Origin: Chondrosia reniformis
Taxonomy: Eukaryota > Porifera > Demospongiae > Chondrillida > Chondrillidae
Assembly (NCBI GenBank): GCA_947172415.1
Contig: OX359195.1
Location: 2,418,001-2,482,000 of the forward strand
Length of the DNA: 64,000 bases
Direction of reading: 5' to 3'
Of the stretch, positions 597 through 27,476 are shown in pieces. The notes under the pieces are model-generated. The model was not told where the DNA came from. It was given only the letters and a program-made list of their open reading frames with translations, and searched no databases. Each line of letters starts with the position of its first letter. Positions within the stretch are counted from its first letter, which is position 1. The position numbers and the translations under genes were made by a program.

Positions 597-725
597 GAAA
601 TATTAAAAATTTTCTACAAAAATAGCGAAGATGTAGGGATGGCACAAAAAGTAGAGAAACAAGAAAGGGATGTTACACAGTGAAGTACGGTACATATCAC
701 AAGTAACTTTACGAATTCCGCGGAT
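597..725 (+). repeat. Left terminal inverted repeat of element 1
   Basis: The sequence from GAAATATTAAAAATTTTC through the run ending GTGAAGTA near 695 is repeated in inverse orientation at 3891-3981. Weaker similarity continues to about 725, matching 3803-3835 on the other side. One mismatch is visible in the outer 95 bases (tagCgaag against tagTgaag), suggesting a young element. Confidence 0.85.
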
Positions 726-990
726 CTGCCGCATAGGTAATCCGCGGCTCTTCTGCGGAATCCTCGCAGAATATCTGCAGATTCCTCTAAGGGTTCCGCG
801 GAATCGTCGCAGGGCATCTGCGGAATCGTCAAAAGGCATCTGCGGAATCGTCGAAGGGCATCTGCGGAATAGTCAAAATTGTCAAAGGGCATCCGCGGAA
901 TCGTCAAAGGGTAGTCGTGAAATCGTCGCAGGGCTACTGTAGCCGTGGAATTGTCGAAAGGTAACCGTAGAATAGTCGATCGATAGTTAT
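715..990. repeat. Left subterminal array of about 22-bp repeats (element 1)
   Basis: Degenerate direct repeats of the form GGGCATCTGCGGAATCGTC at a spacing of about 21-23 bases, at least five units. A corresponding GC-rich array with GTTCCGCGGAAAGGC units lies at 3625-3800. The shared core is close to CCGCGGAA. These could be protein-binding sites for transposition; that role is inference. Confidence 0.7.
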
Positions 991-1017
991 TTAAGGTGTT
1001 TAACAGCCCTAAAGGTC

Positions 1018-1175
1018 AAGTGTCACATACGGCATAGTTGTGGTCAACCAATATCTATTTAATATAGCGCAAAAGGTCAAGTGTCACATTTGGGGCATAG
1101 TTGTGGTCAACCAATGTTTATTTAATGTGCAATATTTGTTTAACAGCGCAAAAGGTCAAGTGTCACCTGGAATAC
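1018..1175 (+). repeat. Short tandem repeat next to the transposase 3' end
   Basis: AAAGGTCAAGTGTCAC occurs three times (about 1012, 1074, 1151), and GGCATAGTTGTGGTCAACCA twice, in an irregular tandem arrangement of about 62-77 bases inside element 1. No coding role is visible. Confidence 0.7.
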
Positions 1176-1254
1176 AATTAGAATCAATTAAGCTTGTACA
1201 TGCAAGTAATAACAAACAAAACAAGAATAGTCACTGCAATAAAAAAGAAATAGT

Positions 1255-2280
1255 TTAATGCCCTGAAGGGGCTCCCTCTACTTGCACTACCACAGGCATC
1301 ACCTTCTGCAGGTGATCGATGTAGCGCGTACATACTTCAGGGGTAAGCGTGGACCAGTACTTTCTGATACCCTCTTTCAACTCACCAAGATTTTTTGGCT
1401 TGAGCTTGTCTCTGATGAAGTTCTTCATCGACCCCCACATCAATTCTATGGGGTTAAGGTCTGGGGACTCTGCTGGACTCTTCCACCAGTTCACTCCATT
1501 GGCTTCAAAGTAACACTGAATATATTTGCTTGTGTGCTTAGGATCATTGTCCTGGTACAGCCGATGACCATGTGGGTACATCTCTTTCAGGAATGGCACA
1601 AGAGAGGCTGACAAGATGTCCGAGTACCTGGTGGCATTCATGATCCCGCTAAACATCACAATTTGAGTGGCACCTTTCTTCGATATTCCAGCCCACACAT
1701 GTATCTTCGGTGGGTGTTTGTGTTTGTACTTCATTTTTCTGGGCATATTCTTCTTCCGGAAGCACTTCCTTCGATGGCACTCCAATTGGAAAGTGGACTC
1801 ATCTGTGAAAATGACATCATCAAATTTCTCTTTCTCAGCGATGAGCTTTGTACACCAGTCAAGCCTCTTCTGTTTGTTGGCATCCCTAATTGCCTGACAG
1901 TATCTCGCTGTTGTAAATGTCCATCCGAGCTCATTACGGATCCTTGCTATGGTTCTTTCTCCATATTGGACTTTCTCTACTCCAAATTCTTTGATGAGTA
2001 TGTCCTTCAGATCTGAAGCAGTCAATTCATCATTGTCTGCCATGGTATCATCGATACACCGAGAGTGGCTTTCAGGCACTTTCGCAGGGGGCCCACTTTT
2101 TGGACAGTCTCTTGTGCTCTTGGTTAAATGCCATCTTGAAATTGTATTGCTAATCGTCATAGAAGTGGTGATTATCCCCTCCAAGGCCAGGATTCTTCTC
2201 ATCTGTGCCAATGTCCATTTACCCTCACACTGGGTCCAAAGGGCTACTATTCTTCCTCTTTGATATTCATTCAAAGGCAT
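1255..2280 (-). CDS. Tc1-family DD34E transposase (element 1), apparently intact
   Basis: About 341 residues from the ATG at 2280 (MPLNEYQRG); an upstream in-frame GTG is unlikely to be the start in an animal. The N-terminal half holds helix-turn-helix-type DNA-binding segments. The catalytic triad is D in VIFTDEST, D in YQDNDPKHTSK and E in PDLNPIELMW, with exactly 34 residues between the second D and the E, the DD34E signature of the Tc1 group. Also typical are the KIHVWAGIS and HRLYQDN motifs. The enzyme would bind the element ends and cut and paste the DNA at TA sites in the nucleus. No stop or frameshift is present, unlike its relative at 23629-24627, so this copy could still be active. 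It lies head to head with the BEN-domain gene at 2561. Confidence 0.9.
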   Translation of the reverse strand: MPLNEYQRGRIVALWTQCEGKWTLAQMRRILALEGIITTSMTISNTISRWHLTKSTRDCPKSGPPAKVPESHSRCIDDTMADNDELTASDLKDILIKEFGVEKVQYGERTIARIRNELGWTFTTARYCQAIRDANKQKRLDWCTKLIAEKEKFDDVIFTDESTFQLECHRRKCFRKKNMPRKMKYKHKHPPKIHVWAGISKKGATQIVMFSGIMNATRYSDILSASLVPFLKEMYPHGHRLYQDNDPKHTSKYIQCYFEANGVNWWKSPAESPDLNPIELMWGSMKNFIRDKLKPKNLGELKEGIRKYWSTLTPEVCTRYIDHLQKVMPVVVQVEGAPSGH

Positions 2281-2560
2281 CTTAATTGTCAAAGTCGCAA
2301 AAGGCACACACACTGAAAAAACACGTTGATTTCGATCAATCAGATAATATTTTAATATTACATTTCGGTCTATTTAATGTTTAATATTAAGCGGACCAGA
2401 ATGTAAATAATATTATATCTGATTGGCTGCGGATAATCTCGCACCTCGAGTGTGCACGTACGTATAAATACAACTTAATTTGATAAGTAATTCACCCACC
2501 TTTCAGTGTGTTCCTACCTTTTGCGAGTTATACTGCCTTTGTGAGTTATCATTTGGAGAG

Positions 2561-3458
2561 ATGGAGAAGATCCTTGTACGATGGAGCGACGGAAAATCCA
2601 AGGGAACGACGTCCCTCGTGAGGAAGAGCGCCGTCAAAAAAGGGACGATTGTTGTTGGGGAGAGTAGTCTCTTGGGGAAAATCAAAGAAAAACTTCAACG
2701 CTGAAGTGATCGATGTCAACGGCACTCAAGCACCAGCATCACCTGCCACTACCAGGAATGAGCCTGAAGAGCAGTTTACTTTTGAACTGGCAGCTCCAGC
2801 TCCAACAACTTCCACAGATTCGCGTGCACCCGAAGGACAGCAGGATGATAGGTTTTATACTATCTTGCAGAAGCTGGAAAGCTTGTCAGAGAAGTTGGAC
2901 AGTTTGTCAGACACGGTGTCTGGCGTTGAAGCGTGACTGGTGTGCCGTCTTCGGACATTAGAGGAGAAAGTGTACACTCTGCAGCCTCCAGTAAGCGAGT
3001 ATCCACTGCTACAGGAAACGCCTATGCGTGCACCCCCCATGGAGATGGCGACACCAGTGCCTCCTTACTTCTGGCAAGAAATTCCCCCGACACAACTGGA
3101 GTCCCCTCATGATATGCCTCTGCAAGACATTACGAGTCGGATGAACGTAGGAGACGTATGCATCCCACCAAAAGACATCAGTTCTGCCCTGCAAGCTTGC
3201 AGGTCACGTAGAAACCTGGCTGCAAGGCTTGCAGCCAGGATGTTCCCGCCACGAGAGCGTGTTGGAAGCAACTGCAGAGGAGTCCTGGGCAAGAAAGCCT
3301 TAAACGGCCCAAAAATCAAAGCTATCTATGCTGCGTGCATGCAGCATTTCCCTCTGCAACGGCTGGAGTCGGCAACTACGTTGGAGAAGGAAATGAGGTG
3401 CGCGATTGACGAAGTCTGCCGCAAGACAAAGCCTCCAGAAGAAATAGAAAATTGTTAA
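2561..3458 (+). pseudogene. BEN-domain protein gene inside element 1, broken by one frameshift and one stop
   Basis: Starts MEKILVRWSDGKSKGTTS at 2561. The frame shifts by one base near the GGGGAAAATC run at about 2680, where GKIKEK should read GKSKKNFNAEVIDV. The second frame runs through an acidic or Ser/Thr-rich linker and a leucine-heptad stretch (about 2860-2925) into an in-frame TGA at 2934-2936, then continues in the same frame to 3458. The last 85 residues or so match a BEN domain (NLAARLAARMFPPRE, SNCRGVLGKKALNGPK, ending near AIDEVCRK). BEN domains bind DNA or chromatin proteins. Because every other part aligns without gaps, single-base lesions are a simpler explanation than introns. 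A role in transposon regulation or end binding is inference from its position. Confidence 0.7.
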
Positions 3459-3802
3459 CTTTTAACCTTTGTTACGATTGTTCTATTGTTACTATTATTA
3501 ATATTACGTTGTTGCTCGTTATTAAACGTTATTGTTTGTGGAAATGCTTGGCTTAGACCGCGTAGTGTGCAGATACGTACCAGTACAAACCTTGTGCGCA
3601 ATACGGCAGAGGCGTTAACGTTCCACGGATAAGGACAAAGACAATCCGCGGACAGGGAAGACGTTCCGCGGAAAGGCAAGAGACGTTCCGCGGAAAGGCT
3701 ACAGACATTCCGTGGAAATAGTACGGTAACGCCGAGGTTAGCTGCGCGGATTCCGTGCGGAATCCGTATGGAATCCGCACGGAATTTCCGCAGAATTCGT
3801 CG

Positions 3803-3981
3803 GATTTTGTAAAGTTTCTTGTGACATGTACCGTATTAGCTATGCATGAATCGTACAACACCCTTGCTTGTAGGATTCATGTATAGCTAATACTTCACTG
3901 TGTAACATCCCTTTCTTGTTTCTCTACTTTTTGTGCCATCCCTACATCTTCACTATTTTTGTAGAAAATTTTTAATATTTC
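3803..3981 (-). repeat. Right terminal inverted repeat of element 1, split by a 55-bp palindrome
   Basis: Inverse copy of the left end. Positions 3836-3890 interrupt the match and form a near-perfect hairpin with 18-base arms (ttagctatgcatgaatc and its counterpart). A TA flanks the palindrome on both sides, so it looks like a tiny element that inserted into the terminal repeat. Confidence 0.75.
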
Positions 3982-3983
3982 TA

Positions 3984-4505
3984 GTTTCTGTACTTTTTAT
4001 GGAGTATGGGCTAGGAATTATAATTGTATACCATTTTGGTTTTGCAATCTTCAACTGAATATGACATCATTAAAATGGCGAAATTATCGAGGCCTTGACT
4101 CTGGGGCCATGAAAACCGTCATACTCAATAATAGCGTTATCGCTCTCGCTTCTACAAAAGAATACAGCTCGGAAAATTTGCAATAATTTCGTTTAATAAT
4201 TAGTCCAAAACCTTGTATAGTTTTTTAGTTATGGCTGACGAAGAATAATAATAATAATAAGAAGAAGAAGAATATGAAGAAGACGAAAATGGGAATTTTT
4301 AAAGTTTATTATTTCGCCAGCAGGACATATTCGCTTGCCTTTAAGGTCTATTTAGAGTATGTATATTGTATATTTAGCTATACATAGCCTTGTTTTGTCG
4401 ATTTTCGGCCTATTTCGGGATTTTGCTCCTATACCGATTTATGGGGAAAACGAAAAAAAACGCGTCATCCCTACATATAGTCGTATAGTAGTATATCCCT
4501 GATAG
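3984..4505. other. AT-rich insertion adjoining element 1, no gene
   Basis: FNBP4 copy 2 (about 54530) runs straight from the base before element 1 to the sequence at 4505, so this 520-bp stretch is extra in copy 1. It has (AAT/AAG)n-like runs near 4245-4275 and ends with CATCCCTACAT, a motif also seen in the terminal repeats of element 1 and in the repeat at 56925-57690. Probably the remnant of another short element. The stretch 4506-5082 is ordinary intron shared with copy 2. Confidence 0.45.
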
Positions 4506-5960
4506 TGTTAATAAGTTATGGTCAATATTTTACTCCTCCTAAGTGTATATACTTTTCATACACTAGTGTAAAACTGAGATTTATGGTTAAGCACTTTTAA
4601 TCACTACTGTATACAATATTTTTATGAAAAGAAATGAACTTTACAGTTATAATCATGGCATTACAACAATATTAATTGTGTAGTGATTAACATTAAATAT
4701 ATTTCTATTATAAGCATGCAGAAAATCAAGGTTATTTTATTATAGAATGATTCTTCTAAAATGAAAATCCTTGTTTAGTCAGTACATTCATAAGCAGTTA
4801 AAATCAGGTGATAGTGGAAATTTTCACAAACTCGGACTATATTTCACCTTTTTTTGCAAACCAAAATCATGAATCATTAAAATTTCCTCGATCGATTCCT
4901 CCGCCATTTTTCTTGAGTTTCACGTGTTTTACCTCTCACTCTCAGAAACAGTGAAAATAAGAATCACATTTATTCTGAGGACCTTTTCAAAGATTCACAA
5001 AAATTTCTATCCTCAAAAATATCCCGCTTTATGTTACCAGTTTATGTGATATATACTGTACAGTTCACATGAGTAGACTTACATCACTCAATCTTCCGGG
5101 AGGACCCACTGGACCATAATAAATTTGAGGCTCAGCTTTAACTATAAATTCTTCAGGATCACTCTCACTTTCATCTTTCTCAGCTTCTTCATCTGGAGGA
5201 GGAGACGGGGGAGTTGGAGGAGAGGGATGGATTTCCCCTTCTTCTAAGGAAGGAGGAGGACCTTACCACACCCCCTCAACTGTAGGCGGAGCAATTAATT
5301 CTTCAACACCTACAGTATGTATAATAAGAAGTTCATTGCCTAGCAGGTAGCTATATAGGTTAGGTGAAATTATTTATAGTAAATCCTGTGAAAGAGGTCA
5401 CCTGAATAGACCAGTCACCTCCTTATTATGGTCACCTCTTAAAGTTCTATATATATAGCTAGTTAAATGATACATGTACATGTAAATGAATAATGCTACA
5501 TCTGAAAGGTCTATAGGAAACTATATAAACTTAATGAGAACTTCTCCATACATACAATAATGGGCCATACATAAGGTTTTCTATAATGCACCCACCTCTC
5601 TAATAAGGCCAGGTTCAGCTGGACCCACTCACTTGTTCATTACTTACAGAACTCATAGTGTGATGCATTGAACACGTAATAATATTATTATAAGGTTAAG
5701 CACTGTAGAGGAAACTCTTCATTTGTAATTATAATTCTTGAAACATATTTCTACTTTGTCTCATCAGTATATAGATTCTAGAATTACCCCACCCACTCAT
5801 GTCTCCTGAGGAGCTATATGTAGCACACTTAATGGAAACCAGGAAGACTCTGGTTCCCATTAAGGGAAGTTCCAGAACTCCAGAAATGAGACATCGGAGC
5901 CTAAGATCAGCTTTTGATCTGAAAGTCCCTAATTTGTTTGTCTTTACTTGATATAGCTTA

Positions 5961-6253
5961 TATACCTGGTGGAGGTGTGGTCTCTCTTGAGTGGGAGGAG
6001 TGTACATTATATACCTGGTGGAGGTGTGGTCTCTCTTGAGTGGGAGGAGTGTACATTATATACCTGGTGGAGGTGTGATCTCTCTTGAGTGGGAGGAGTG
6101 TACATTATATACCTGATGGAGGTGTGGTCTCTCTTGAGTGGGAGGAGTGCACATTATATACCTGATGGAGGTGTGGTCTCTCTTGAGTGGGAGGAGTGTA
6201 CATTATATACCTGATGGAGGTGTGGTCTCTCTTGAGTGGGAGGAGTATACATT
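5961..6253. repeat. 49-bp minisatellite at the end of the second WW exon (six copies)
   Basis: Units begin at 5961, 6010, 6059, 6108, 6157 and 6206. On the minus strand each unit carries the end of FNBP4 exon 7 (coding SSHSRETTPPP) followed by a splice-donor-like CAG/GTATAT. The paralogous exon at 55810-55905 has only two units, so the array has changed length since duplication. Confidence 0.85.
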
Positions 6254-8261
6254 CTTCCTTTTGATTGGAGTCTGTTCCTCACTAGCTTCTCTTCCCTGTC
6301 CTATGACCCCGCCCTCTATGACGTCATCAGCGGGAAAGTCCCATGAAGCCTTATCAGTGACAGCATTATAATAGTAATACCTTTCAAAATCACTACATTA
6401 CAATGGAAGAAGCGATATCGTGTCACTAGAGGAACTGAATAGAGTTTAGTACAAAAGCACTGAAAAGCAATAGAAATGTTCAATGATTGCGACTAGATAG
6501 CATATTTGTAAATATTTAAATGTTAGATACACAATTTAATAAGAAAATATAGATAATTCTTTGATCAGTAAAATGCATGTACATATGTTAGAAGATAACA
6601 ATCCAAATTATTCATTACCATGGCAACTCACACCTTCTAACTGACTACATCAAACTTGCTCTGCCATGAGGAAATCCCTATAATCAAACTTCCCTCTGGT
6701 GTACTGAACGAGTTACTATGTCTCTAGGGAGACTAGTGCAAGCCACACTTTCAGAGGCTTAGTTTCAAAGATTTATTACAGCACAGTTTGTCAGTTAAAA
6801 TGTCATGTGACTATCATGTGATCTGAAGTGGGTATACCAAATGCATAAAGCACCCACCTATCCCAAACAAAAGTCCATCCAGTTGGAGCTACTTGAGTCT
6901 CATATTCTTTCAGGGCAAGGGTAGTTTCCTCTAATTTCTGCAAGAGATATTGTGTTGGTAACACCCCCTCTCTCCAATCATTGACTCTGACCTGTAAAAT
7001 GAGATGCTACCTGGCAATAGTGGAGAAGAGCAGTGCAATATATTATATATGTACAAACCTCAACTTTGATTAATTCTATAATAAGTGGATGTGTTCCCAT
7101 GGTAACAGCTCCTAGTAGGGCTAGCCTCTTTAAAATCATTTTACAAGTGAATTCTGTAGTCTCCTAATACAGTAGAGAGGAAAAACACAGTAATTGAATC
7201 ACGAAAACACAAAGAAGCAATTGAATCTTATGACCATCTTTAGTCTTTTGAACACTTCAACAGAAATTGACTGAAGAAGATCGCCAGGGTAAAAACGTTT
7301 GAATCTAAAAGAACTGACTGCATCTCTAGACATTCAAAAGACTAAAAGATGAACCATCTCAAAGACAGTGTACATATACACAACAAAATAGGCATAGCAT
7401 TTAGGAAAATGGTATCTTAGATTTTTCATATGTATATATATACGTATATAGAATTACGCAATCTTATGAATCTATTACATAATGTGTACTATCTATGCAT
7501 ATATACCTCAATCAATGCATACCTTATTAAGATTGGGATTACACGAGTTCTCCTCCTCAAAACAGTCTTGCAGTTGAGGCCGATTACTTCCATTGTTGGG
7601 CTTCAAGTTAGCCACTCCCTCTTTATCACCAGTCACACCCACTTCCATACCATCAACATCATCTTTATTGCTATCATCTCTAGTAACACTTTCTTCATCT
7701 TCTAAATTGTCTGCTATTCTTGCCTTTTTAGCTAAAGGACTATCTGGACCAGCTTCTATGATTGGTTTCTGACTGGTTGGCAGTGTGCCTCCGTTGCGTG
7801 GTCCCTCCTCCAGAATAGCCTCCAGTGCACTGTCAAGAATGTTATCAATGTCCGACTCGTCTGATTCTGAAGGAACATAACCCACTAAACTGACTCCATC
7901 TTGATTGGCTTCTGAATCCTCATTCCCATTTCCATTTTGGATATCCAATTTCACAGTGGTACCAGTCTTGTCAACTTCCTCAGGATCTACATTCTCCTGG
8001 AGATCAGCCTCCTCCTGTATCTCTGCCGTGCATGGGGAGGGGTAGGGGACACCTGACTCCGCCTCATCCAGGCCTAGGATGGTTGGGCCATACACAGCTT
8101 CACCTGTGTTCTCTTCACTCACACTCTTATCAAGGTTAGAAGTGTCCTTGTCCTGTAGGTTGGTGGGCGTGACCCCTTGTGGGAGTGTCCAGGATACATT
8201 GTTAGTGACAGTATTCCAGTAATAGGTATAGCCAGAGTTTTGATCAGTGCACATCTGCCAT

Positions 8262-8466
8262 TCATCCTGACTGCAGGTAATAAAGATATGCCAACCACAA
8301 CTTTATTAATATTCATCTTGACTACAGGTAATAAAGATATGCCAACCACAACTATATTAATATTCATCTTGACTGCAGGTAATAAATATATGCCAACCAA
8401 AACTATATTAATATTCATCTTGACTACAGGTAATAAAGATATGCCAACCACAACTATTTTAATATT
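8262..8466. repeat. 51-bp tandem repeat spanning the exon 4 splice acceptor (four copies)
   Basis: Four 51-bp units starting near 8260, 8311, 8362 and 8413. Read on the minus strand, each contains TTACCTGCAG or TTACCTGTAG, so the acceptor of FNBP4 exon 4 exists four times in a row. Only the innermost acceptor leads into the open WW frame; the outer ones run into a TAA within a few codons. Confidence 0.8.
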
Positions 8467-8787
8467 CATTTGTTTAGTATACAATTGTAAAGTGAGTTTT
8501 GAAAAAGGTCTTAGAAAAGAGTATATTCACAGCTTGTTAAGTATAGAAATTTGCTGTATCAGCATATTTTGTGATTCTTGCATGAATTACTAACTGATAG
8601 CAACTACACATATGTATATATATGTACAGAGTTAATATAAGACAACCACAACTATTTTTCTAAAAGATAAGCAAACACAATTTCTGTATTTTGTGATTAA
8701 TCGTCAGATGGTTTTAAGGTCATCATGACTACAAAATGAAGTTACAAGAAAACCGGCAGTTTCATTATGAGATGTAAGAACTAAGAG

Positions 8788-8872
8788 ACAGACAGACGGA
8801 TGGACAGATGGACGAACGAACGGACGGACGGACAGACAGAGAGACAGATAGACAGACAGACATACAATTTCT
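8788..8872. repeat. GACA/GACG microsatellite
   Basis: Imperfect four-base repeat (gaca, gacg, gata units) in FNBP4 intron 3. The overlapping reading frames of low-complexity sequence are not genes. Confidence 0.85.
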
Positions 8873-9127
8873 TTAAAAAGGATACCTGTTTCCACAGACA
8901 TGGATTTTTGAGCAAGTCCTGCAAAATTACAATATTTTTGATAATATACGTACATATATGTACCTTGAGGATTCCTCCATTTGGTTGGAATTAACAGGAA
9001 TGTTTTCAGTAGATTCTCCTTCAGTTCTCAAGTGGTCCCTCTACTCCCTCTCCTCCCTCTTGTCGTCAGAGGTCTCCCTGACTGGGGAGGAGGGCGGAGC
9101 ATTGTCAGACTCCAGTGTGCTGATAGC

Positions 9128-10277: not shown

Positions 10278-10464
10278 ACAAGTATAGTATAGCAGTATAG
10301 TAGTATAATAGTATAGTAGTATAGTAGTATAGTAATAGTATAGTAGTATAGTAGTATATATAGTAATAGTATAGTATATAGTATAGTAGTATAGTAGTAT
10401 AGTAGTAGTAGTATAGTAGTATAGTAGTATATATAGTAGTATAGTAGTATAGTAGTATATAGTA
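10278..10464. repeat. TAGTATAG low-complexity repeat
   Basis: Long run of TAGTATAG and TAG units in FNBP4 intron 2. It yields artificial Tyr/Leu/Ile-rich frames on the minus strand, which are not genes. Confidence 0.9.
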
Positions 10465-10540
10465 GCAGCAGGAGTATAATCATTACAATTACACTTCATC
10501 ACTGCAGATGCACTTGACATCTTAATCATAGGCTACAGGT

Positions 10541-11058: not shown

Positions 11059-11595
11059 GGGCACAGGTTAATCCTATACAATGGGATTGTTCTCAAGTTT
11101 TCTTTCCAGATTACTTGATCTTTATTTCATTTTACACCCAGCACTACACCTTATACTAACTTCATTAATAAGAGCTAATTCATTTCTCAGACCAATTAGC
11201 TCTGTTTTTCCTTGTCACTAAATGTCTGCATGCTAACACAGTTAGTCTTACATTTCTTGACCAAACCTCTCTCCTAGAGGAAAAGAGAGCTTTGGAGGAA
11301 AGTTTGAGGTACACCTCAAGACTAAAGTAGGATGAATGGAGACGTATTTAGTTTTAACCTTTAATCCACCAACATAGATATCAAATCCTTATCAATTTAA
11401 CTATCTCCAATCATGTAAAGTAGGATGAATAAAGACATGAGGTTTCTTCTAACTTATCTTGAAAGGGTCTTTCCGTCTCTTTTGAACATCTAAAGACAAT
11501 TGCTGAAGACGACCCCCTGGGTCCAACAAGAAGTTCACATCAAAAAGTAGATGCTCAAAAGGAATTTAAGATGAACATTTTCAAAGATAAATGGA

Positions 11596-13906: not shown

Positions 13907-13972
13907 TGTTATATTTAGTAACATACTTGTAACCATTTGCAAATATAAAAATGCAAAATCATTGTTTGTATA

Positions 13973-15777: not shown

Positions 15778-18700
15778 ATGGGAAATGTGCTAGATTTTGT
15801 ACGTCCTTCACCAGTGACACCTCGTTTAGAGGAGGAGCAAGCTGAAAGTGAGCGATTACACTAAACCATTACTTTCCTATCTAGCTAGAGAGCTAAGGAA
15901 ACATAAAGAATACTCTAGACATTCACTTGTGTCTCCAACTTATAATCTAATCCATGCACCGCTTTTCTACATCAAGAGGCTAAGGATAGTTAAATTAAGT
16001 ACATTCTAGTCAGGATATAGCCATCGACTGACTGTCGATTGTGCTGTTCGACTACTGATTGATCAGACCAGATAATATTACTGACAATGATAACCTCTTA
16101 ATACTATGACTTTACTGTTTGCATCCAAATTGGTCCAGTTCATTCCTTCATGTGTGTATGTAATAGTTATGGAACCAAACGTTCAATGTGAATGTGAGAG
16201 TGAATGTCAGTTTTACCAATTTAACCACTGTAGTGTCAGTATATAGAACTACGTACATATATAGTTCCACATATAGTGATAAACATGCAGAATGAACAGA
16301 GCTAGTTCTACCATATAGATCTTATATACTGAATTGGTTCTCCATAGGCCAGACCACTATCTAACCGCCATTTTTATTTGAGAATGTAAAAAGGAGAAGT
16401 GCCAGTGAAATGAATAGAATGTTCTTTACTTTATTAGGAGAATGTGAGTCATCAGGGTTATCCCAAACAGAACCACAAGTTAGTCAAACTGCAGATCAGA
16501 CAGAACCACAAGTCAGTCAAACTGCAGACCAGACAGAACCACAAGTCAGTCAAACTGCAGACAAGACAGCAACCATCACAAGTGAGTCAAACAGTTTTAA
16601 CTCGTACTGTACAGGCTCTGGTTAATGAATACTTGTGTGTAGTCACTTATGTGTACTATTAATCTTTATTATACTCTATAACTATAATGAATATATACGC
16701 TCCAATAAAAGTGTTTTATACTGTTATTCTCTGCATGTAGTAGGTGACACACCAGTGAAGCCAACCATCCTAGATCTCCAGTATGTGGCAGACTCTGTGG
16801 CACTTGGTCACTCAGATGGGATCTGTAGACGATTAGGGGTCAGTGAGGCAGTGCTCAGAGAGGCTGAACAAACTTACCCTCTCAACACTGCTGGAGCTCC
16901 AGCAAAGAGGTTCATGTTTGGCTTACAGGACTGGTACAATGGAAAAGGAGTCCTCCATGGTAGAACCGTACCAGTGACACTTTCAGTTCTCTGTAAGGCA
17001 CTCAAGGAGAGCAGGTATAGAGGTGTGGCTGAAGAACTGAGGAAACAAAGTACGTACATACACATAACTAAAGATGTAATAAACCACAAGTGTTTTACAT
17101 AGAGCAAGCATATATGCATGACATGAAAAATGCTTTCAACAGTTTATCCAATGAATATTATACATAGGACCATGGTCGTAATGTTACCTTTATGTCATGG
17201 TCCTTCTTCAGGTCAGGGAAGACATCTTGCTATCTCCACCTCTCCTCACAGTGATGTTACTCCTGATCATAGTGAAGTAAGTGTATTCACATAGCAACCA
17301 GTTGTATTTTGTATAGTTTAAGTCATGACTTACATCATGCAGCTAGCAAGTCATTAGATGAAATTGTTCTCTTCTTTAATAGCCTTCTAATTAGTCTGTG
17401 TGAATTTACTTCTATAAGTTTCCCGGTTTAATTCTTAGTAATTGTTGAGTGAGGATTCCAACACAATAATATTTTGCATGTTAAATGTACATTTTTATCA
17501 ATTTCAAAAGTTACATGTTCATTTGCATGGTCAAGTAGTTTTTATAAATTAGAACTGATGCTTTCTACTTAAATAATAGTTAGTGAAATATACTCCTTCT
17601 TCCTAATGTGCAGAATGCTCTTACCAATCTTAAGAAGGTGTACCAAAGTCCAGTCATATCAAACCACTGGTTACTGAAGCTAGCTATAATGGACTTTGTC
17701 AAACTCCAACTTGTAGAGTCACCAGAATTGAAAGTGAGAAAAGCTAAGCTACAGTGCGCTCCATCTGTAGTTCTAGCATCAGCTACTGGTCAGTCACATG
17801 ACATCAAAGGAAAGTCCATTGGCCTGCAAGAGACCTTGGAGTACGAGCCTGTACAACCTCCGAGGAAACGCATCCTGCTGGAAGGAGAGCCTGGTATAGG
17901 CAAGTCCACTCTGACCAAACAGCTATGCTACAAGTTTGCTGAGGGTACATTTGCCAGTGAATACAAGCTAGTCATTCGCGTAGTACTCCGAGGTCTCCCT
18001 TCCGATACAACACTGAGTGTAGAGGACCTAGTTTGCAGCTGTACCAGTGATGTTGGGGCAAGTCTTGATGAAGAAGATGTGTCCACTTTGAGTCAGTACA
18101 TCACAGCCAACAAGGGAAAGGACACACTGTTCATCATGGATGGCTACGATGAGTTCCCTGCAGAGCTACAGAAGAAATCTCTGGTTGCAGACATTCTAAA
18201 TGGCAAGACCCTCCCCCAGTCCTCCTTCATCATCACATCCCGACCACAAGCATCAGCCCCTCTACATGACAAGATAGAAAGACGCATTGAGGTGAGTGGA
18301 TTTGGAAAGGAAGAGATTGAGCAGTTCATAAGAGAGTACTATGGAGAGTCATCTAGTTCTGTAGCTGATGCTTTACTAGAAAGGCTGAACTCTACAATGC
18401 CTCGAATCAAAGCCATGTGCTTCATCCCTCTGATCCTGCTGATGACATGTTATGTCAATGATGTCCTTGATGCCCCTCCTGATACAATCAGTGGTCTATT
18501 TAAAAGCATCATCTGCCTCACTGTGAAGCGACACTTTGAGAAGAATGGAGTGGAAATGAAAATATGCAGTTTTGAGGATGTCCTGAGACTCTGTCCCCGT
18601 TTGATCAAACTGAGTCAACTTGCCTTGGATGGTGTGCTGAAAGATGTCATCATTTTCCACAATCTGGAGCTGTCAGAAGATGATCATTTTGGTCTAATGA

Positions 18701-21700
18701 ACTGCATCTCTTATCGAAGTGCCTTTGGTGGATTCACTGGATCATACCACTTTCTTCACAGAACAATTCAAGAGTTCCTTGCAGCTTGTGCAGTAAAGCA
18801 GTTACCTGCCGAGGAACAGGGAAAGTTCTGGAAAGAGAGACTTGTTCTTGGGTACAACACGGAGGGAGATTTTGTCTTGTCAGACTCCAACTACGAGATG
18901 CCATTCCTTTTCTTCTGTGGCATTGGAGGACTAGAGAATGATGCTGTGAGAGACCTCTTGTTTGAGCCACTTGCGTTTTTCAATGATCGCAGGTTCGCTA
19001 GAGGGACCCCTTTCCCTGAGATTGCTAGAGCAGTAGCAGAGAGCAGAAATGAAGAGCTGTGTCAAAGGGTCATGGAATATTGCAGTGAAGCAAAAATGTT
19101 TGGTCTCAGTCCCCTTCAGCTCAACAGTTTGGCATACCTTATGACCATCAGCAGACACATCAAACGACTTGTGGACCCAACTGATTCCTTTTTTAAGCAA
19201 ATATCTGGAAAGGTGACATATTTGGAAGAAGTCACAATTAGAGGTGAGTTGATATTGTAAGTTGAGATGTGTGAATAAAACACTTTTGTAGACTATTGAC
19301 ATGCCATATATAGAAGAAGTTACAAATTAATAGATCCAGTACAGTGTGTATTGATTGCTCCTAATACCTTAAGCTTGTGATTATCTTTGAAGTGTGAATA
19401 TTCAACTTGACTGAAGACACTCATAACTTTCCTTCTATAGCTTCCTTGGTAAGTCAGCAAGAGTCAAGGGTCTGGGCTACTTGAAGAATTTCTAAATTTG
19501 CAAAATTCATTAAATAAACTGACCTTTATAGTAGAAGAATGGGTAAGTCCAGTAGTTGTATGGCTTCTTTAATTGTCTTCTTTTGTAAATATAATACATT
19601 ACATTTTATGTAAGTATATGTGACCATCCATGCGAAAAGGGGCATTTTCTCGCTGTAGCAATATGTTCAATATATTTTCGGGTGTTTTAAAAACGTTGTG
19701 GTAAAATTGTCAAACCTGCAGTTTTCTTTTAATATTATTAAACATTCGTTACTCTAACCTTTCCCAATGTTGCCGTCATTGTTTTGGTCTTCTTTGTGCG
19801 ATTAATCCGATCTTATTAAATAGAAGCTACCGTAAATAAACCGTTTTGTAATATATACGGAACTGTGAATATTATTATCGTTCAGCTAGATTTGATTTGA
19901 TTTGTGTGAGATTGCATAATCAATGATGTCATCTGTTTATACCTAAACAGAAGTAAAATTTTAAAAGCAGTTTTACCATAATGCGTTTGGCAACAGTTCT
20001 GTTTTCAAAGTGTCGTAACTTTGTATCCGTAACAGCTATGACACTTCTGATTGCACCTTTGCTAGCACTACGGAACCCTTTCAAATGATAGCAATTTCAG
20101 TTGCATATGCGAAAATGCCCCTTTTTGCATGGTTGGTCACATATATTGTACTGTTTAATGGTACATTTTACTTCTGTTCAGTTGTGTGGACCTTCGGTGA
20201 GAGAATATTGCATTTCAGCGATGTCTGGCATTGTTTCAGTTCATTCAGAGGGACTTCAACACCTTGTGATACGTTTCCATGGTGAGTCTTTTCAACTGTG
20301 TACTGTTTATTCAGTAAAAAAGTTAACGTTCTACGCCCATTCAACGACTACGAGTACGGGCGTAGAACGACAATGAGTACGGGCGTAGGACGGCAACGAG
20401 TACGGGCGTAGAACGGCTACGGGTACGGCGTAACATGACTACGGGTACGGACGTACTACGTCTACCGCTACGGGCGTACTACGGCAATTACTACGGAGGC
20501 GTAATTGTACTGTTAAAGAGGCGGGAAACAGCATTCGTTCCGGTAAGCATTCTTTCGTTTGTCAGTTCTGTTCAGCAAGAATGAGCGCCCGCTTGGCCAC
20601 GAAACAGTTCAGTAAGTTCTCCTAGCGCGCATGGACATACGACTTAAGGTTTACTTACGTACATACAATCAATTCCAAACTTCCACAGAGGATCATGTGC
20701 TTGTTTACTGGAAGGAGGAAGACTGCGTGAGCATTGTGCCACTGAGGGACATTGTAGATCCGTGTCCCCTTGTGACAAACCAGAGTTGTACAGTTCAGAC
20801 AGGCAAGAACACCTACTACGGTTTGGCAGTTCAAATGGGTACGCTTATAGTGACTGTATACGTACGTACATAAATACATTACACCGTAAAACAATGCCTG
20901 CATGGTCCATGGGTGGGACAAATGCTATTCAGAGTTGGACTTTCGATTGGTTTAACGTTCTTTCACATTTAATAAATGATTTAACGCCGGACGTTCGGAT
21001 TGGTTTAATGTTTTTACATTTGCAATTAACGATTTTTCATTTGCTTTAATTAATTAATAATAAAATGGAATATAGACGTTTTAAGACTAAACAAACATTT
21101 GCAGATAAATGTATACGCTATAGAATTGTCGTCCAAACTACTTCTATACATACACACAATTGTAAGAGTCTCTTTCGAGAGTAAACTATAAATAAAAATT
21201 ATAGTTATAGTACGTAATTACACGATAAATGCTACATATACGATATAGAAAATTGTATATACCTACGCATTCTTCCTCTGTATTCTTGCTATCATTTTTT
21301 GTTGAGGAGAGTCATGCATTATATAGGATGTTTATCTAGGTATCTAAAATGTGCCTAATGTGACAAATCTAGCCTTATACACTTTTCTATACATATAGCT
21401 TTGATTGTTTAGGCTAGTATACTGATAAATGAAAACTAATTCAGTTTACTGTCGAAAGCGTTTTGGACGTTTCTTCGCTAAAACTTAATAGCAAAATTAA
21501 TTCTCTCACAGGCTCGAAACAAGAGATGCTTAAGTTGGAGGACAGCTTTGTAGATGGTTCATTTGTAATCCCTGGGCAGGGTAGTGAGGAATCAAACCAA
21601 AGGGAAGGTCAGAACATAGAGTTGGTAGACAAAGGACCAGAGATCACCAGAAAGCATGGAGTTTCAGCAGGCAATGTGCCACGTGTTGCTTTTGCAGACC

Positions 21701-24700
21701 TAGATGTCAATGCAGACAAGAGGAAGAAATAGGTTAAGAAAAGGAAAGTGGAAAAGAAGGAAGAGCAGCAGCCAACTGGAGTTATTCTTGCTAATGTGGC
21801 TCATGACAAAAGCAACAATGCTTGCAACACTGCCGTAATGCTTAAGCATGTCCTCAGGCTTGCCAATTCGCTTTCCAATGTGACAGAAAAAAATGGAAGA
21901 TGCGCATGAGAGAATAGAAGAACAATTGAAGGTGCTACATGTGGATGTGCAACAACTCTGAGATCGCCTAGAGCAGTACATCAAAAATGAAAAGGAAAAT
22001 TGCCCCATCTTTAATGATCCAGCTATGACGTACATGGATGCTAACAGCATGCAGCCTGAAATGTTAGCTGAAGTAATGCTGCAGCAAACGCCGCCACCAG
22101 CCACAAGTTCCATGCTCAGACCCATTGTTGCAGTGAGTGAGAAGAATCTGGAATTACCATCAGAGGAAATAGTCAGATCAGGACTGAGATCCATCCCTGA
22201 GGTACTGCAGAAGTATCCAGAGTTGCAAACAGATGCCAAAATGGGAGTCCTAGGGGTAAAGCTAGCCCGTGAAGCATTCTTTGGAGATGACATCCTGAAA
22301 CGGTGTACTCCCAGAGGGTGGCAAGACCTCCCTGCTCTGCCACAGGGGCAGCTCTTTGCACTCAAGACTACACTGTGGAATCAGTTTCCACGATACTGGA
22401 GCTGCCCTGAGGCATTTGAGAAGAAGTGGGTCACAGTTCAAGAGGCAGTGGCACAGGCATGCAAAAGACTGAGGAATTTGAAGAAGTAGATTTAGCATAG
22501 TAACTTCATGGAGTTAAATGCTAAACCTACTTCAGCTACAACTGCACACATAGGACAAACTACATAGGTTGTAAACAATGATTAATAGGAACTAGCTCAA
22601 CCACAGTGGTTGGGTGAGAACTTACGTATAGGTAAACATATCTTCTCAGTGTATATTGTTTATTTTAATTGGCTAAATAAACTCAATGCACAAATGGGTG
22701 GGTGACTGGGTGTAGCTACAGCTTCACAGTTGTCATAGGCATAACAAATGGAGATGATACACTACGACAACCTCCCCTTTCTATCCTTGAATTGCTAAAG
22801 GAATCTGATTTCAGTCCCTTTTCTATCACATGTATACAAGACTAAACTACTAAGGAATTGTCTCTTCCCACATCATGTACACGGAGATGAGCTACTAAGG
22901 AGCCACTATCTGAAAATACATTCCTTCTGTCCGAAAATATATAGCTGAGAACAGGCATCATGATGGTGATTTGGTTTCTCCAAAGGTAGGCACACCCAAG
23001 GGCTACTCGCAGTAGAAATTGTAGACACCCTCTGCTAATACTTTCGCCCTTATTGGGGTTTAATTAAATAGTTACAATAGCAATGATCATAAATTCATTT
23101 CATCATAGTAGTCAACCTATCTTCATTTAAATTCACACCACCAGTCGAGGCACAGTGGAATTGTTTTTTTTTTACTGGGTTATAGACCCATTTTCATTTA
23201 AAAGCGTCGAATGAACTTTATTATGATGCCTACAATGTAAATAAAGACTACATCAGCACATAAACTTCATTTTAACCTTAACAGCTTCATGTTTTCTTGA
23301 AGAAAGGTGTCCGATAATAGATGTCCCCAGGACGTCTAATCAAAACAGCTCATTCTCTGGTGTCTTAAAACGTTAGAGCCTACAATTTCTGCTGCGAGTA
23401 GCCCTTGGGTGTGCCTACCTTTGGAGCAACTAAAAGTTGATAACTGAACCGGTTTCGAAGTTTATGGGCCAAATACAAAAATACATGGTGTCTGAAAATA
23501 GAAGCAGTGCCCTAGATATAGCTACAATATATACGTATATTCCCCAGCATAGATTATATAGACTACGTACGTAAGTGTAATTTATGGCTACAGTAATAAA
23601 GTGACTTGAACATGGAAAATTTCTGAAGTTAATATCCTGTTGCAGCTCCCTTGCACTCAATCACTGCTGGTATGACTTCCTTCAAGTGGCCTATGTATTT
23701 CTGGCACTTTTCCACCGTCACGGTCTCCCAAAATGCCTTGATTCCAGAAATCAATTCAGACTTTGATGTAGGCTTCACTTCCCTCCTGATATATTCCTTC
23801 AGCTCATGCCACATATTCTCAATTGGATTCATGTCCGGAGATTCAGGAGGAGTTGGCCACCAGTTGACTCCCTCCTCATCATAGAATTTCCGTGCCAGCT
23901 TGGAGCAGTGCTTTGGATTGTTATCTTGTATGAAACGATGACCATCTGGATAGCTGTCCTTGATAAATGGCAGAAGGGTGGACCTCAAAATTGATATAAA
24001 TAAAGAGGCATTCATTTTCCCTTCAAAGATACATAGACCTGTTCTGCCACGATGGCTGATGCCTGCCCAGACATGTACCTTCACAGGATGCTTTGGCCTT
24101 GGCTTGTAACGAGGCTTGCATCCTCGTTTGTAACAGCAGGTATGCCTATGCGTTTCTATCTGAACTGTAGTTTCATCCGTGTAGATGGTGTCCTGAAATG
24201 TCATGTCTTTGTTTTCTTCAGCAAACTTTAGCCTCTTCTCCTTGTTGACATCTCGGATCACCTGGCAATAACTACTGCCTTTGGATGTCTAGCCCAGATA
24301 CTTCCTCCATTGATGTATGGATGATTGTGCTACATCAAACCCCTCCTTCTTCAGTAGTTGTTTGAGCTCCTGGATAGTTGTTTCGTCATTTTTTTGCATT
24401 TGGTCTTCAATAAGCTTGCGAATTTCAGCGTTAACTTTGGAAGTTTGGCCTGATCCTGGTTCACGGGCAATTGTTCCACTCTCTTTGTATCGTCGAATGA
24501 ATTTGTAGACGTCGACTTTACTTGCATTGTACCCTTCTTCTGCCAGGTTCCGAACGATTTCCGCGCCGTTCTTCTTTGACTGGTGATAAAAAAGGATCCT
24601 TTGTTTTACATAATCAGAATAAACCATCTCCTCGGATGCTGCAAAGAACGCAAATCACACTCTATGGGTGGGGAAACGTTTGTGGGCCCTGGAATAGATG

Positions 24701-27476
24701 CAAATCACTCGGGGGAGGCGGAAACTAACAATTCGCTCGCGTACAAGTAAATATGCAACCGGTACGGGTACGGTAACGAGTGTACGTACGTACTATATGG
24801 CTACGGCTACAGCTACGGGCGTACTACGGCTATGGCTACGGGCGTACTACGGCTAGGGCTACGGGCGTGCGTGCGGGCGTAGAACGTTAACTTTTTTACT
24901 GAATATACCGTATGTGTATCTGAAATTAGTTCCAAGTTTATGTACACAGGATCTGTGAAGGGCTGTACAGAAGCTACTGACTAGTATTGCTTCTTAAGTA
25001 TAAGGACATAACTAATTTATCTTTAGAAGGTTCACTTTGATACTCCTGTTTAATTGATAATGTGTAGCAGTCTTATGGCTATCCCATAGTTGATCTAAAT
25101 AATTTTCTTCTTCAAAAGTTATGTAATAACTGTGTTGTTTATCAGTGAAAGTGATCCTTTGAGAAGAGAGATGTATTTTGTGTAGTGCAAATTAGTTCTA
25201 ATGGTCAATCCTTCTGACCAGTCCAATCCATTTGATTATTAGAGAGTGCTCTGCTCATTCACTGTTCTCTCAGATCAACTGGTACATATGTAGAGACTGG
25301 AAGTGCTGTCTCATTTCCATGTAGTTATTCCATCCACACAATGTTTACATCATGTCAGCTAACCTTGTTCTGTGCAGAAGACATTTTATTGTTATATCCA
25401 CTCAATTGTGAGGGATATTTCAGTTGACACTTTTGTATAGTGTATTCTCATGTGTATATCACATCTCTGTTATGTGTGGTGTATACAGGAAGGTCTCACT
25501 GATCTTGTTGAATGTGGAGTTGGACAGTGCAGGACACTCACGAAGGTCACCATGATAGCTGGTAGACATCAAACACTGACCTCCAGTATATTAAAGGGAA
25601 TGATCCAGAATCCTTCATTAGAACAAGTTGAACTGTGGAGTTGTGAATTTGAAGGTAGGTTTTATAACTTTATGTACAGAATGTATTGCCTATGGAATTA
25701 TTACGTTTCATCAACTATGAGGATCATGTACTCTATACAGTCATCTCAATAGAATGGTTGTGTTCAGTAAAGTGTCCCTTTCAAGTGATTAATAGCCAAT
25801 ATATAGCCTCTCTCTGCAACATTTCAAACTATTGCATAAGCATTAAATATAAATTTGCCGTGTGTTAATGTACTGTAATCTGATTTGTTCATTTAACTGA
25901 CAGGAAATGGAGCATTACTTGTGAAACTGTTACAGAGAAAAAATGGATTGAAGAGTATTAGCTGTTTTAACATAACTCCGAGGGACATTGCTAATATTAT
26001 TGGATGTCTTCATGACAACAAAGAACTCACCATCTGGACTATTACAGACCAGTCTGAGGTACACTTGACTGCCTATCACTAGTAAACATTACTTTCCCTT
26101 ACTAATTATAGGTACTTATATCCAGTCTGCTTATTTCAAAGTTTACTGTACTCTCTAAGTTGGAATGGCCGGAAAAAATATGGCTGCCGTATCCAATGTA
26201 TTAGCAAGCGACACCTCATAAATCACCAACAAAGCAATTTTGGTTATATTCTGTTATTTGCACGCTTTTCTAAATGCCAGAACATGTTTCCACGCTCTAC
26301 AACGTTCAAAAAGCAGCTAATCCGGAATACGCCCATTTCCAAAATTCATTTTTTCTTCTTGTTTTTCTTCTTCTTTTATTGAATGGACTACCACTAATAT
26401 GTGAACGTATGCAAGTATGCAAGAAGTATGTTAATTGTGAAAGCGAAAATTGTGGTCTTCCCGGCTGCCATTTTTAAATAAGAGAATATGGTTTTCAGCA
26501 CATTTCTCTTGCCTAGAACGTTATTTCGAGATTTTCGCCAAGAAAACTTTCTAATTAATTTAAAACAAGTAATATTAAGGAGAAAAAGAGGGAATACAAG
26601 TAAATATAAGACATTTACAAACATGATGTTAGAAGTGGGAATGGCAGTGTTCACTAATACATCTGCAAAAAGTATCGAAACAAGACATTGATTATATGAT
26701 AAGGCTAATCATACAGAAGTTGCATATACGTATATACTGAAATTTAAATAACTTAACCATACACTTCTGTGTTTGGGAGCACCATTCCTACTTCAGTTTG
26801 GTGCACCATCAGGACTGTCACAGACCAGTCTGAGGTACACTTGACTGCCTATCACTAGTAAATGTTTTTTTTATTTACTTGTGTTTATTTGACAAAGTTT
26901 AGCTTTATTTGAATAGCTTATTGCAGTCTATGGCCTCTGAGTGTTTTAGATTAAGTAATCACTTCATATTGTAGTGCATGTATTTAATTGTTCTGGATAC
27001 ATTTTTACAGAATATCCAGGATGTCACTGAAGAAGATGTCTTGACATCCGTTGAACAATCTGTCAAGGAGAACACTACACTGGAGAGGTTGACAGTTTAT
27101 AGTCAACGGAGTAAAATAAACTGGAGGAATGTTGCAGAGAGCATTCTAAAGGGAGCAGCAGCCAATCAGAATCTCAGAGAGTTGGAACTGTTAATGAATA
27201 AGGACTACAAAGAATATGCTCCTAAACAGGAAGTGATTGATAATGTAAGAAAAGTCAACAAGAAATTGAGACTCATTGTTGGGTTAAGTAAGTGAATGTC
27301 TTTCATCATCTGTGTGTACATGTAATCGCTACATTCATTGACAGTAGATTTGCTAATTTCCAATCCAAATAGTGTCACATGTGGACTGTGTTATTTATAG
27401 GAATACATTATCTAATGTATGTAACTTGTAAATGTGTAATTCTTTTTTTGCTCCAGGGACACTTAATTACTTGTGA
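15778..27476 (+). CDS. NLR1: Death-NACHT-LRR innate receptor-like gene, LRR part disrupted by a transposon
   Basis: Exons: 15778-15847 (MGNVLDFV start), 16438-16581 (QTEPQVSQTAD repeats), 16744-17049 (Death domain: RRLGVSEAVLREAEQ, KRFMFGLQDWYNGKG, ALKESRYRGVAEELRK), 17212-17276, 17614-19243 (NACHT), about 19441-19542, 20182-20281, then 25489-25654, 25904-26058, 27011-27287, 27457-27476. The NACHT exon has Walker A GEPGIGKST and Walker B LFIMDGYDEFP and an undamaged 543-codon frame. Exon 6 is one base out of phase unless the acceptor at 19453 is used. Exon 7 ends in phase 1 but the next surviving exon begins in phase 0 and would hit a stop after three codons; three LRR exons present in NLR2 are missing, replaced by element 2. 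The expected product is therefore Death-NACHT with very few LRRs. NLRs sense danger or microbial signals in the cytosol and signal through death folds. Confidence 0.75.
16464..16565 (+). repeat. 33-bp coding tandem repeat in NLR1 exon 2
   Basis: Three in-frame copies of the 11-residue unit QTEPQVSQTAD. The same exon with the same repeat number occurs in NLR2 (45564-45675). The repeat forms a hydrophilic linker between the N-terminal part and the death fold. Confidence 0.85.
19615..20146. mobile_element. MITE-like element in an NLR1 intron (about 530 bp)
   Basis: ATGTGACCATCCATGCGAAA at the left is inverted at the right end (about 20111-20146), with the match running 36 bases and few differences, flanked by TATA. 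The corresponding introns of NLR2 and NLR3 lack it. No gene. Confidence 0.8.
20325..20515. repeat. Left subterminal array of about 22-bp repeats (element 2)
   Basis: Degenerate repeats of CTACGAGTACGGGCGTAGAACG type at about 22-23-base spacing, six or so units. The inverse array lies at about 24755-24890. The motif is unrelated to that of element 1, but the spacing and position are alike. Confidence 0.75.
20631..22489 (+). pseudogene. BEN-domain protein gene inside element 2, decayed
   Basis: Exon 1 from the ATG at 20631 encodes a module (DHVLVYWKEEDCVSIVPLRD ... GLAVQMG) similar in position and pattern to the start of the element 1 BEN protein. It ends at a GG/GTACGC donor (about 20838). 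The frame resumes after TTCTCTCACAG at about 21511 (SKQEMLKLEDSFVDG). Damage follows: in-frame TAG at about 21730, a one-base shift in an A7 run near 21890, and an in-frame TGA near 21958. The last 75 residues or so match a BEN domain (KLAREAFFGDDILKRCTPRG ... QAVAQACKRLR pattern). A lysine-rich stretch and a coiled-coil-like stretch precede it. DNA binding is expected for the family; a transposon role is inferred. Confidence 0.65.
22980..23427. mobile_element. Inverted-repeat element nested in element 2 (about 450 bp)
   Basis: CTCCAAAGGTAGGCACACCC at the left end is inverted at the right end; the match runs about 48 bases with two or three differences. It separates the BEN gene from the transposase. 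No coding capacity and no clear target duplication. Confidence 0.8.
23629..24627 (-). pseudogene. Tc1-family DD34E transposase (element 2) with a single nonsense codon
   Basis: Starts MVYSDYVKQRILFYHQ at 24627. An N-terminal helix-turn-helix region (NLAEEGYNASKVDVYKFI) and a linker run to KYLG, then TAG at about 24290, then the same frame continues TSKGSSYCQVIRDVNKEKRL to the end at 23629. The related transposase in element 1 has LGW at this place, so a Trp-to-stop change is the simplest explanation. The catalytic residues are kept: D in TIYTDETT, D in FIQDNNPKHCSK and E in DMNPIENMW, 34 residues apart. Total about 332 codons. Without readthrough the copy cannot make enzyme itself. Confidence 0.85.
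26140..26680 (-). repeat. Dispersed AT-rich repeat between NLR1 LRR exons
   Basis: Reverse-complement similarity to 57060-57680: both share AATACGGCA-CCAT, a T-run, GGCCAT-CC-ACTTAGAGAGTA at one end, and ATTTACTTGTATTCC, then GGCGAAAA-CTCGAAAT inside. It is flanked by a duplicated exon end (see 26046-26089 and 26817-26862). No gene. Confidence 0.6.

Follow-up and report, generated by a model that had tools for sequence, protein, structure and literature searches.

Why would a Tc1-like transposon carry a second gene with a BEN domain, and why are its ends filled with dense repeats rich in CpG? Two such transposons, element 1 and element 2, lie in a stretch of 64,000 nucleotides from the sponge Chondrosia reniformis (the window; C7:2418001-2482000), and I compared them with the whole assembly (117,379,552 bases on 15 contigs). 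It was found that the pairing of transposase and BEN genes is a genome-wide system. At the level of sequence, the comparison has shown a common layout: a terminal box of about 20 bp (mostly TA-CGGTA...), CpG-rich ends, a DD34E transposase, and a co-inherited BEN protein. Taken as a whole, these elements are best explained, with somewhat better than even confidence, as a two-protein, two-site system in Tc1-like transposons that would be autonomous in intact copies.

Two-gene elements and their movement

Is the two-gene arrangement common in this genome? I counted the BEN matches within 4 kb of 47 entered transposase places in which 300 or more query residues were matched (two long degenerate places, C5:4197086 and C1:5178948, are outside this count). 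A BEN match on the opposite strand was found at 36 of the 47, divergent in 11 cases and convergent in 25. A wider set of 66 places is non-random, because some short places entered it on account of a nearby BEN match; it comprises 14 divergent, 35 convergent, and 2 same-strand pairs and 15 places without a BEN match. All 14 divergent pairs belong to the element-1 clade, their transposases being 61-100% identical to that of element 1. At least four of the 15 places without a match (L053, L056, L057, and L060) have a BEN-like open reading frame (ORF) detected by profile, and L056, one of the 47 long places, adds such an ORF to the 36. Counted from the BEN side, 16 places in the genome score above the Pfam BEN cut-off; for 15 of them the nearest of 69 entered transposase places is no more than 2.4 kb away, and for the sixteenth no more than 3.7 kb. 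The regions up to 2.2 kb from these 69 places cover about 0.3% of the genome, a chance level that is somewhat higher for the full, longer transposase list. Host BEN genes interrupted by introns may have escaped the count of 16.

Does the whole unit move? The parts of element 1 and of the miniature inverted-repeat transposable element (MITE) around it are as follows.

593..687, + strand: left arm of the palindromic MITE that hosts element 1 (the terminal inverted repeat, TIR, of element 1 lies elsewhere)
686..687: left TA target-site duplication of element 1, with its partner at 3834-3835
688..3833: element 1, Tc1-like transposon with a BEN gene, 3,146 bp between its true ends; TIR 686-720/3801-3835 including the TA
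715..985: left array, in a 22-bp phase, with units of the TCCGCGGA palindrome and TCGTC
1255..2280, - strand: DD34E transposase, open frame
2561..3458, + strand: BEN protein gene, broken in the window copy by a frame break and a stop
3610..3800: right array, in a phase of about 22 bp, with TTCCGCGGAACGTC units
3834..3985, + strand: right part of the host MITE

The initial annotation had let element 1 begin at 597. This end was rejected; the 95-bp arms at 593-687/3891-3985 belong to a palindromic MITE in its own right, with 86 listed matches and 40 scored candidates; it is about 245 bp long and present in many genomic copies that are 97-100% identical. When the flanks of element 1 are joined across 688-3833, they restore the uninterrupted MITE sequence GTGAAG-TA-TTAGC, as it stands in L080 and L082, the two further copies that were read. 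The filled site in the window is GTGAAG-TA-[CGGTACAT...ATGTACCG]-TA-TTAGC. Thus, a unit of 3,146 bp, element 1, moved into the MITE with both genes, both arrays, and a TA duplication. Its transposase and BEN genes are divergent, in the head-to-head order first described. The copies on C6 and C12 have ends of the same kind as the window copy, and the C6 copy (L069) has an unbroken BEN frame of 331 codons; other loci with an open BEN frame include L012, L015, and L002. In all, five near-full-length copies of element 1, including that of the window, carry both genes between the same ends. Members of other families, such as C2:640k and C2:2094k, are 99.7% identical as far as the TIR and different beyond it. 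Together with the insertion into the MITE, such pairs indicate that the whole two-gene unit moves.

Element 2 has a different arrangement.

20303..24910: element 2, Tc1-like transposon with a BEN-like gene, with TA at 20301-20302 and 24911-24912
20330..20497: left array, in a 23-bp phase, with TACGGGCGTA units
20691..20850, + strand: stretch of the BEN gene with the N-terminal module (DHVLVYWKEEDCVSIVPLRDIV...), from its translation; likeness to the group A3 module judged by eye
22025..22489, + strand: BEN-like C-terminal part
23629..24627, - strand: transposase, interrupted by one in-frame stop
24773..24882: right array, with a period of 23 bp by Tandem Repeats Finder (TRF) and a weaker autocorrelation (9 of 200 shuffles as strong)

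The BEN-like gene and the transposase are convergent, and the tail-to-tail order given at first stands. An independent copy at about C7:1163607-1169267 has both genes between the same ends and different flanks. A second candidate insertion at C7:2549935 (L035) was rejected; it is a segmental duplicate, 98.7% identical to window positions 22134-26127 (the right part of element 2 and its flank). A 55-bp inverted repeat, possibly another MITE, is nested between the two genes (22970-23024/23380-23434). Beside element 2, an open frame at 17608-19260 (LLEGEPGIGKSTLTKQ...) is presumably NACHT/NLR-like, and a 33-bp tandem unit, CCAGACAGAACCACAAGTCAGTCAAACTGCAGA, is present twice in the window (16463-16592 and 45563-45674).

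Both elements are Tc1-like, as stated in the initial annotation. Their transposases match Pfam DDE_3 (4.5e-19 for element 1 and 6.4e-21 for element 2), and the best PDB match of the transposase family profile is Sleeping Beauty (9.3e-38). The DD34E spacing was found in all 18 transposases measured, including that of element 1 and, via the C7:1163k copy, that of element 2. In the N-terminal part, all helix-turn-helix matches are below the Pfam cut-offs. The TA target-site duplication is seen in the empty and filled MITE sites of element 1, and the other elements that were read are bordered by TA. Most copies depart from the usual single-gene layout of Tc1/mariner by their second gene; one gene per element is usual in this superfamily and is no defining trait, and the membership stands.

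The two elements had been said to differ in their terminal sequences. This is wrong at the outermost bases, where both share TACGGTA; the MITE had been mistaken for an end. Element 1 starts with TA-CGGTACAT; the right end of element 2 is TA-CGGTATAT (start TACGGTATATTCAG) and its left end is TACTGTTTAT (start TACTGTTTATTCAG). TACGGTA was found at one or both ends in 10 of the 12 families with both ends read, elements 1 and 2 included. The remaining two, both of group A4, start with TACAGTA or TACTGTA, or have TACAGTG at one end. The ends of family C2_6612 were not found, and it is therefore outside the 12 families and the 15 elements used below.

BEN proteins and their nearest relatives

Is the second protein a BEN protein in both elements? 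It had been described as an N-terminal module followed by a coiled coil and a C-terminal BEN domain. The plan observed is a module of about 50 residues, a linker with a likely coiled coil, to which weak library matches point, and the C-terminal BEN. The module and a BEN or BEN-like domain were recovered in both elements; for element 2 the BEN assignment comes from profile comparison only. In the window copies themselves, the Pfam BEN model gave 17.9 bits for element 1, under the cut-off of 23.2, and no match at E<=1 for element 2. Relatives in groups A1 and A4 are significant: at E<=0.1, the model matches eight of nine A1 proteins (best 1.6e-6) and all five A4 proteins (best 3.6e-7), against one of six in A2 (E 0.014) and none of six in A3. 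Judged by these matches, groups A1 and A4 are plain BEN.

The A4 profile reaches further. For members of A2, the group of element 2, it gave E values of 2.7e-5 to 5e-4. In a search of 724 ORFs, taken from the loci and from the window, A4 came on top, then A1 with its copies (down to 8e-12), then a tier of A2/A3-type ORFs (6e-6 to 5e-4) that includes one A1-clade fragment, and all 43 ORF matches listed sit at BEN positions. The BEN-like copy of element 2 itself scored 0.0036 with an A1+A4 profile. By hhalign, the BEN groups compare at 98% for A1-A4, 98% for A2-A3, 81% for A2-A4 (E 1.2e-5), and 36% for A1-A3; the direct A1-A2 comparison gave nothing (0.4%). The N-terminal modules compare at 92% for A1-A3, 41% for A1-A4, and 8% for A3-A4. 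The whole A2 profile found no BEN structure in the PDB, where its matches, all at E >= 0.04, were taken for chance. From these profile links, I take A2 and A3 to be a divergent BEN branch, with the homology of A2 following by transitivity.

A profile of four A1 and five A4 proteins (A6) matched BEND3 (6.3e-13) and BANP (1.8e-8) in the PDB and nothing else at E<=1. Both proteins are reported to recognise CGCG DNA and to be repelled by its methylation; the methylation selectivity of BANP is reported to depend on oligomerisation via a coiled coil or the C-terminal domain, and an arginine in alpha-5 (Arg316 of BANP) to be common to CpG readers (PMC11472053). I placed the equivalent site by the residue spacing named in that paper and the BEND3 alignment, without a BANP alignment. 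An arginine is present there in eight of the nine A1 and all five A4 proteins.

The linkers of several BEN proteins consist of tandem peptide repeats (L071 545-656 and L065 535-853), and in this they resemble VANC proteins, for which tandem peptide motifs are reported (PMC5735166). In the C1_2100 family (L015 2520-2860, and L018), the transposase and BEN frames open with a near-identical leader, FVHAFG.YESLRLEE. The divergent promoter region of this family may be an inverted duplication.

Arrays, co-descent, and the reader of the arrays

What do the two genes have to do with the ends? The dense repeats of about 22 bases first noted inside both ends of both elements were recovered by two methods. 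TRF gave periods of 22/44 for element 1 and 23 for element 2 at both ends, and the autocorrelation of the pooled ends peaked at 22/44 (z 11.5) and 23/46 (z 7.4), with none of 200 dinucleotide shuffles as strong. The pooled peaks are 22/44 in three element-1 copies, 22 in C11_1420, 21/42 in C12_2329 and C12_5107, and 11/22/33 in C2_4370; in this strong-period set, element 2 included, at most 1 of 200 shuffles was as strong. Weaker or other periods (shuffles of 200 in brackets) were found in C12_5099 (45; 0), C2_2094 (45; 2), C2_7299 (15; 1), C5_2116 (20, with 42 at one end; 1), C1_2100 (8; 0), and C1_5376 (20; 0). The top 7-mers of the ends are CCGCGGA in element 1 (13-16 copies vs 0 inside), GGGCGTA in element 2 (8 vs 0), and GTACGAA in C2_4370 (15 vs 0). 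The observed/expected CpG ratio of the ends is 1.24-2.07 in all 15 elements (12 families), against 0.25-0.83 in the interiors and 0.44 in the window; the ends of C1_5376 and C3_683 are CpG-rich as well. The CpG-rich zone runs from about bp 24-37 inwards, and in most families it holds a group-specific motif, often palindromic, spaced at two helical turns.

Such ends could also be plain promoter CpG islands or tandem expansions that serve no dedicated protein, with BEN as a passenger. Tandem repeats grow by slippage, the arrays are weak in some families, and the outer ends of convergent elements also lie upstream of a gene. In the element-1 clade, however, the genes diverge from the middle and the outer ends are CpG-rich all the same; the interiors of element 1, element 2, and C2_4370 lack the top motif; and BEN is under purifying selection (see below). 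I consider a passenger BEN very improbable.

Have the two genes descended together? The initial annotation had raised the ideas that the transposase and BEN trees match and that the array motifs follow the BEN changes. In trees of 19 transposase-BEN pairs, A1, A2, and A3 each form one side of a branch for both genes, and A2+A3 are joined at 100/99 in both trees. To this extent the trees match; A4 is no single branch in either tree, and the placement of C5_2116 is unsure. No gene swap separating a transposase from its BEN was found among these pairs. The motifs do change with the group. The stems in the BEN tree are longer by a factor of roughly 2.5 to 5, and the longest reaches the midpoint root; as read from the trees, BEN is diverging faster than the transposase. 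The ratio of nonsynonymous to synonymous substitution rates (dN/dS) in two close pairs is 0.28 and 0.34 for the transposase and 0.40 and 0.39 for BEN, and in six wider pairs the nonsynonymous proportion (pN) is far under a saturated synonymous proportion (pS). By these measures, BEN is under purifying selection.

Could BEN then be a self-limiting repressor, a copy-number control that, coating the ends, keeps transcription or transposition down in the manner of known BEN repressors? The BEN-solo proteins of Drosophila are reported to work in repression and insulation (PMC6911014), and the genes of the element-1 clade diverge around one intergenic region. In a selfish element, purifying selection that persists from lineage to lineage would be unexpected for a pure repressor, unless it aids spread. 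This role seems quite unlikely.

Which protein reads which part of the ends? Partial Mantel tests were performed with the 12 families. The outer TIR box follows the transposase given BEN (0.56, P 0.001) and not BEN (0.06, P 0.34). On this correlation, the outermost 20 bp or so are clearly the transposase's part. The array follows BEN given the transposase (0.32, P 0.012). The array motif changes along with the faster protein, and the terminal box remains tied to the slower; this pattern speaks for BEN as the reader of the array, short of proof. Kinship to the CpG readers BEND3 and BANP and the CpG-rich ends strengthen the case for BEN binding its own array. From the sequence comparisons, I think it probable that BEN binds the array.

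The transposase itself may bind the array as an expanded form of the inverted repeat/direct repeat (IR/DR) structure, with BEN as a separate regulator, such as a repressor or a chromatin tether acting elsewhere. Tc1 transposases bind internal direct repeats, as in the IR/DR of Sleeping Beauty, and the first array unit sits inside the TIR. The array correlates with the transposase given BEN about as well (0.36, P 0.03) as with BEN given the transposase. On the other side, the correlation with the transposase is strong for the outer box and lower for the array, and so many sites per end would be unusual for a Tc1 transposase. Several array motifs are also CpG palindromes like the reported sites of the nearest BEN relatives (PMC11472053). 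Binding of the array by the transposase is an unlikely alternative to binding by BEN.

Do the derivatives of element 1 depend on the arrays? Among the entered end matches (31 of 38 left and 28 of 46 right), 27 of the 31 left ends of the element-1 type pair with a right end: five near-full-length copies, one damaged copy, 15 places of 745-1604 bp, and six of 111-597 bp. The 15 have mostly or wholly lost the coding sequence, and in 12 of them each end is retained over 150 bp or more, which fits a cis-requirement for the arrays. Some short derivatives (L088, L089, C4:4839683, C2:6246726, C1:6015851, and C13:4193618) have about the first 60 transposase codons and have lost the rest; such truncated pieces could act as competitors. 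End fragments of element 1 are also clustered at G000:C5:8008749-8055960, apparently amplified locally.

The proposed mechanism is as follows. The transposase would recognise the outer terminal box. The BEN protein, oligomerised like BANP, would bind several CpG motifs at each end. Binding may need unmethylated CpGs, and the array may thus be a methylation-sensitive licence. Ends bound by BEN would stay open, be expressed, and/or be paired for the transposase, and ends methylated by the host would stay silent. A binding sensitive to methylation that licenses movement or counteracts silencing is a tentative proposal from sequence, in which I have a little less than even confidence. A purely architectural role of BEN in end pairing is rather unlikely.

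Is methylation at work in these ends? DNA methylase domains are present in the genome, and sponge methylation can be heavy, with 81% reported in Amphimedon and 37% in Ephydatia (PMC7385117). Among the three element-1 copies, CpG differences are 14/72 and 14/68 in the arrays and 29/142 inside, about 20% each, mostly CG to TG or CA. Differences at other positions are about seven to eight times rarer (11/246 and 2/190 vs 50/1995). The resident arrays seem, from this pattern, to have been methylated. A CpG-dense array in each family would then reflect renewed selection at each round of movement.

The equal CpG variation in the arrays and inside belongs with several observations that weigh against the proposed system: it means that resident arrays are not shielded from the loss of CpGs to which methylation is expected to lead. 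Of the 47 long transposase places, ten are without a BEN match within 4 kb, and one has a same-strand match only, 3.9 kb off. The ends of C3_683 have no significant period (26 of 200 shuffles), those of F_C1_5376 have no enriched 7-mer (38 of 200 shuffles match the best), and inner windows of some elements hold other 7-mers at counts up to 10. The alpha-5 site has lysine in seven of seven A2 proteins and glutamine in five of six A3 proteins (one not read); it is also glutamine in C11_1420, whose arrays still hold TCCGCGGA. To the same side belong the scattered A4 group and the array-transposase correlation given above. AlphaFold models from single sequences had confidence scores (pLDDT) of 45 and 54, too low for use. 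The six short derivatives have partial ends only, one of them (C10:5152624, 111 bp) little beyond the TIR, and they speak against a strict cis-requirement unless they are decayed remnants. The evidence also comes from one genome only; viral contigs, scanned with the transposase as another source of relatives, gave none.

Comparison with known systems

Are such elements known? The sponge elements resemble Tc1/mariner transposons such as Tc1 and Sleeping Beauty in transposase kinship, DD34E spacing, TA target, and TIRs, and two A4 families start with TACAGTA/TACTGTA. They differ in the second gene with BEN, the CpG-rich subterminal arrays, and their size of 2.8-4.7 kb. To my knowledge, members of Tc1/mariner have been described with a transposase only, and a dedicated reader of CpG motifs is not known to me from any animal DNA transposon. 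In a literature search by title or the abstract shown, partly limited to the top 10-20 of many matches, no element with DD34E and BEN was found described; in PMC5704228, the BEN domain is mentioned in the reference list only. On sequence grounds, I file these elements as a variant of Tc1/mariner transposons, apparently undescribed, whose second gene codes for a BEN protein.

PIF/Harbinger transposons have two genes as well, a transposase and a second, Myb-like DNA-binding protein, and belong to another superfamily. The En/Spm element of maize, with its TnpA protein and subterminal motif arrays, is a member of the CACTA superfamily with no BEN and another target site. VANC is encoded by a plant transposon and is unrelated to BEN. 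The sponge elements resemble the VANDAL elements of Arabidopsis in a non-transposase DNA-binding protein coded by the element (the binding here being predicted), in dense tandem motifs of their own family in non-coding parts, and in a protein and a motif that change together between families; there, unlike here, loss of methylation is reported from experiment, the sponge elements being known from sequence alone (PMC5735166). They resemble En/Spm in that TnpA is also coded by the element, and activation of the element by TnpA is reported to correlate with DNA demethylation; plant experiments with VANC, TnpA, and MURA are reported to show that proteins encoded by transposons cause a loss of methylation (PMC10398659). 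Thus, systems of such a kind exist, and the proposed licence would, by analogy, work like Spm TnpA or VANDAL VANC, built from unrelated parts. Among solved structures, those of BANP and BEND3 are nearest to the BEN domain of A1+A4, and BANP has the layout of coiled coil and BEN that is likely in the element proteins; unlike the latter, which have another N-terminal module, BANP and BEND3 are products of host genes without a transposase partner.

It is put forward with considerable doubt that this is an animal transposon group with its own methylation-sensitive licence, in which a reader of the BANP/BEND3 type on phased CpG palindromes counters or senses methylation and the reader and the motif change together. 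If so, one genome would hold many natural reader-array pairs at graded divergence, and the co-evolution of transposons and DNA methylation would be directly testable in animals. It would also provide a set of new CpG-specific DNA-binding domains. As a bolder corollary, such transposons may be the source of some BEN genes in animals and animal viruses. For the origins of the BEN domain, it may matter that 15 of the 16 Pfam-BEN places of this sponge adjoin such transposases.

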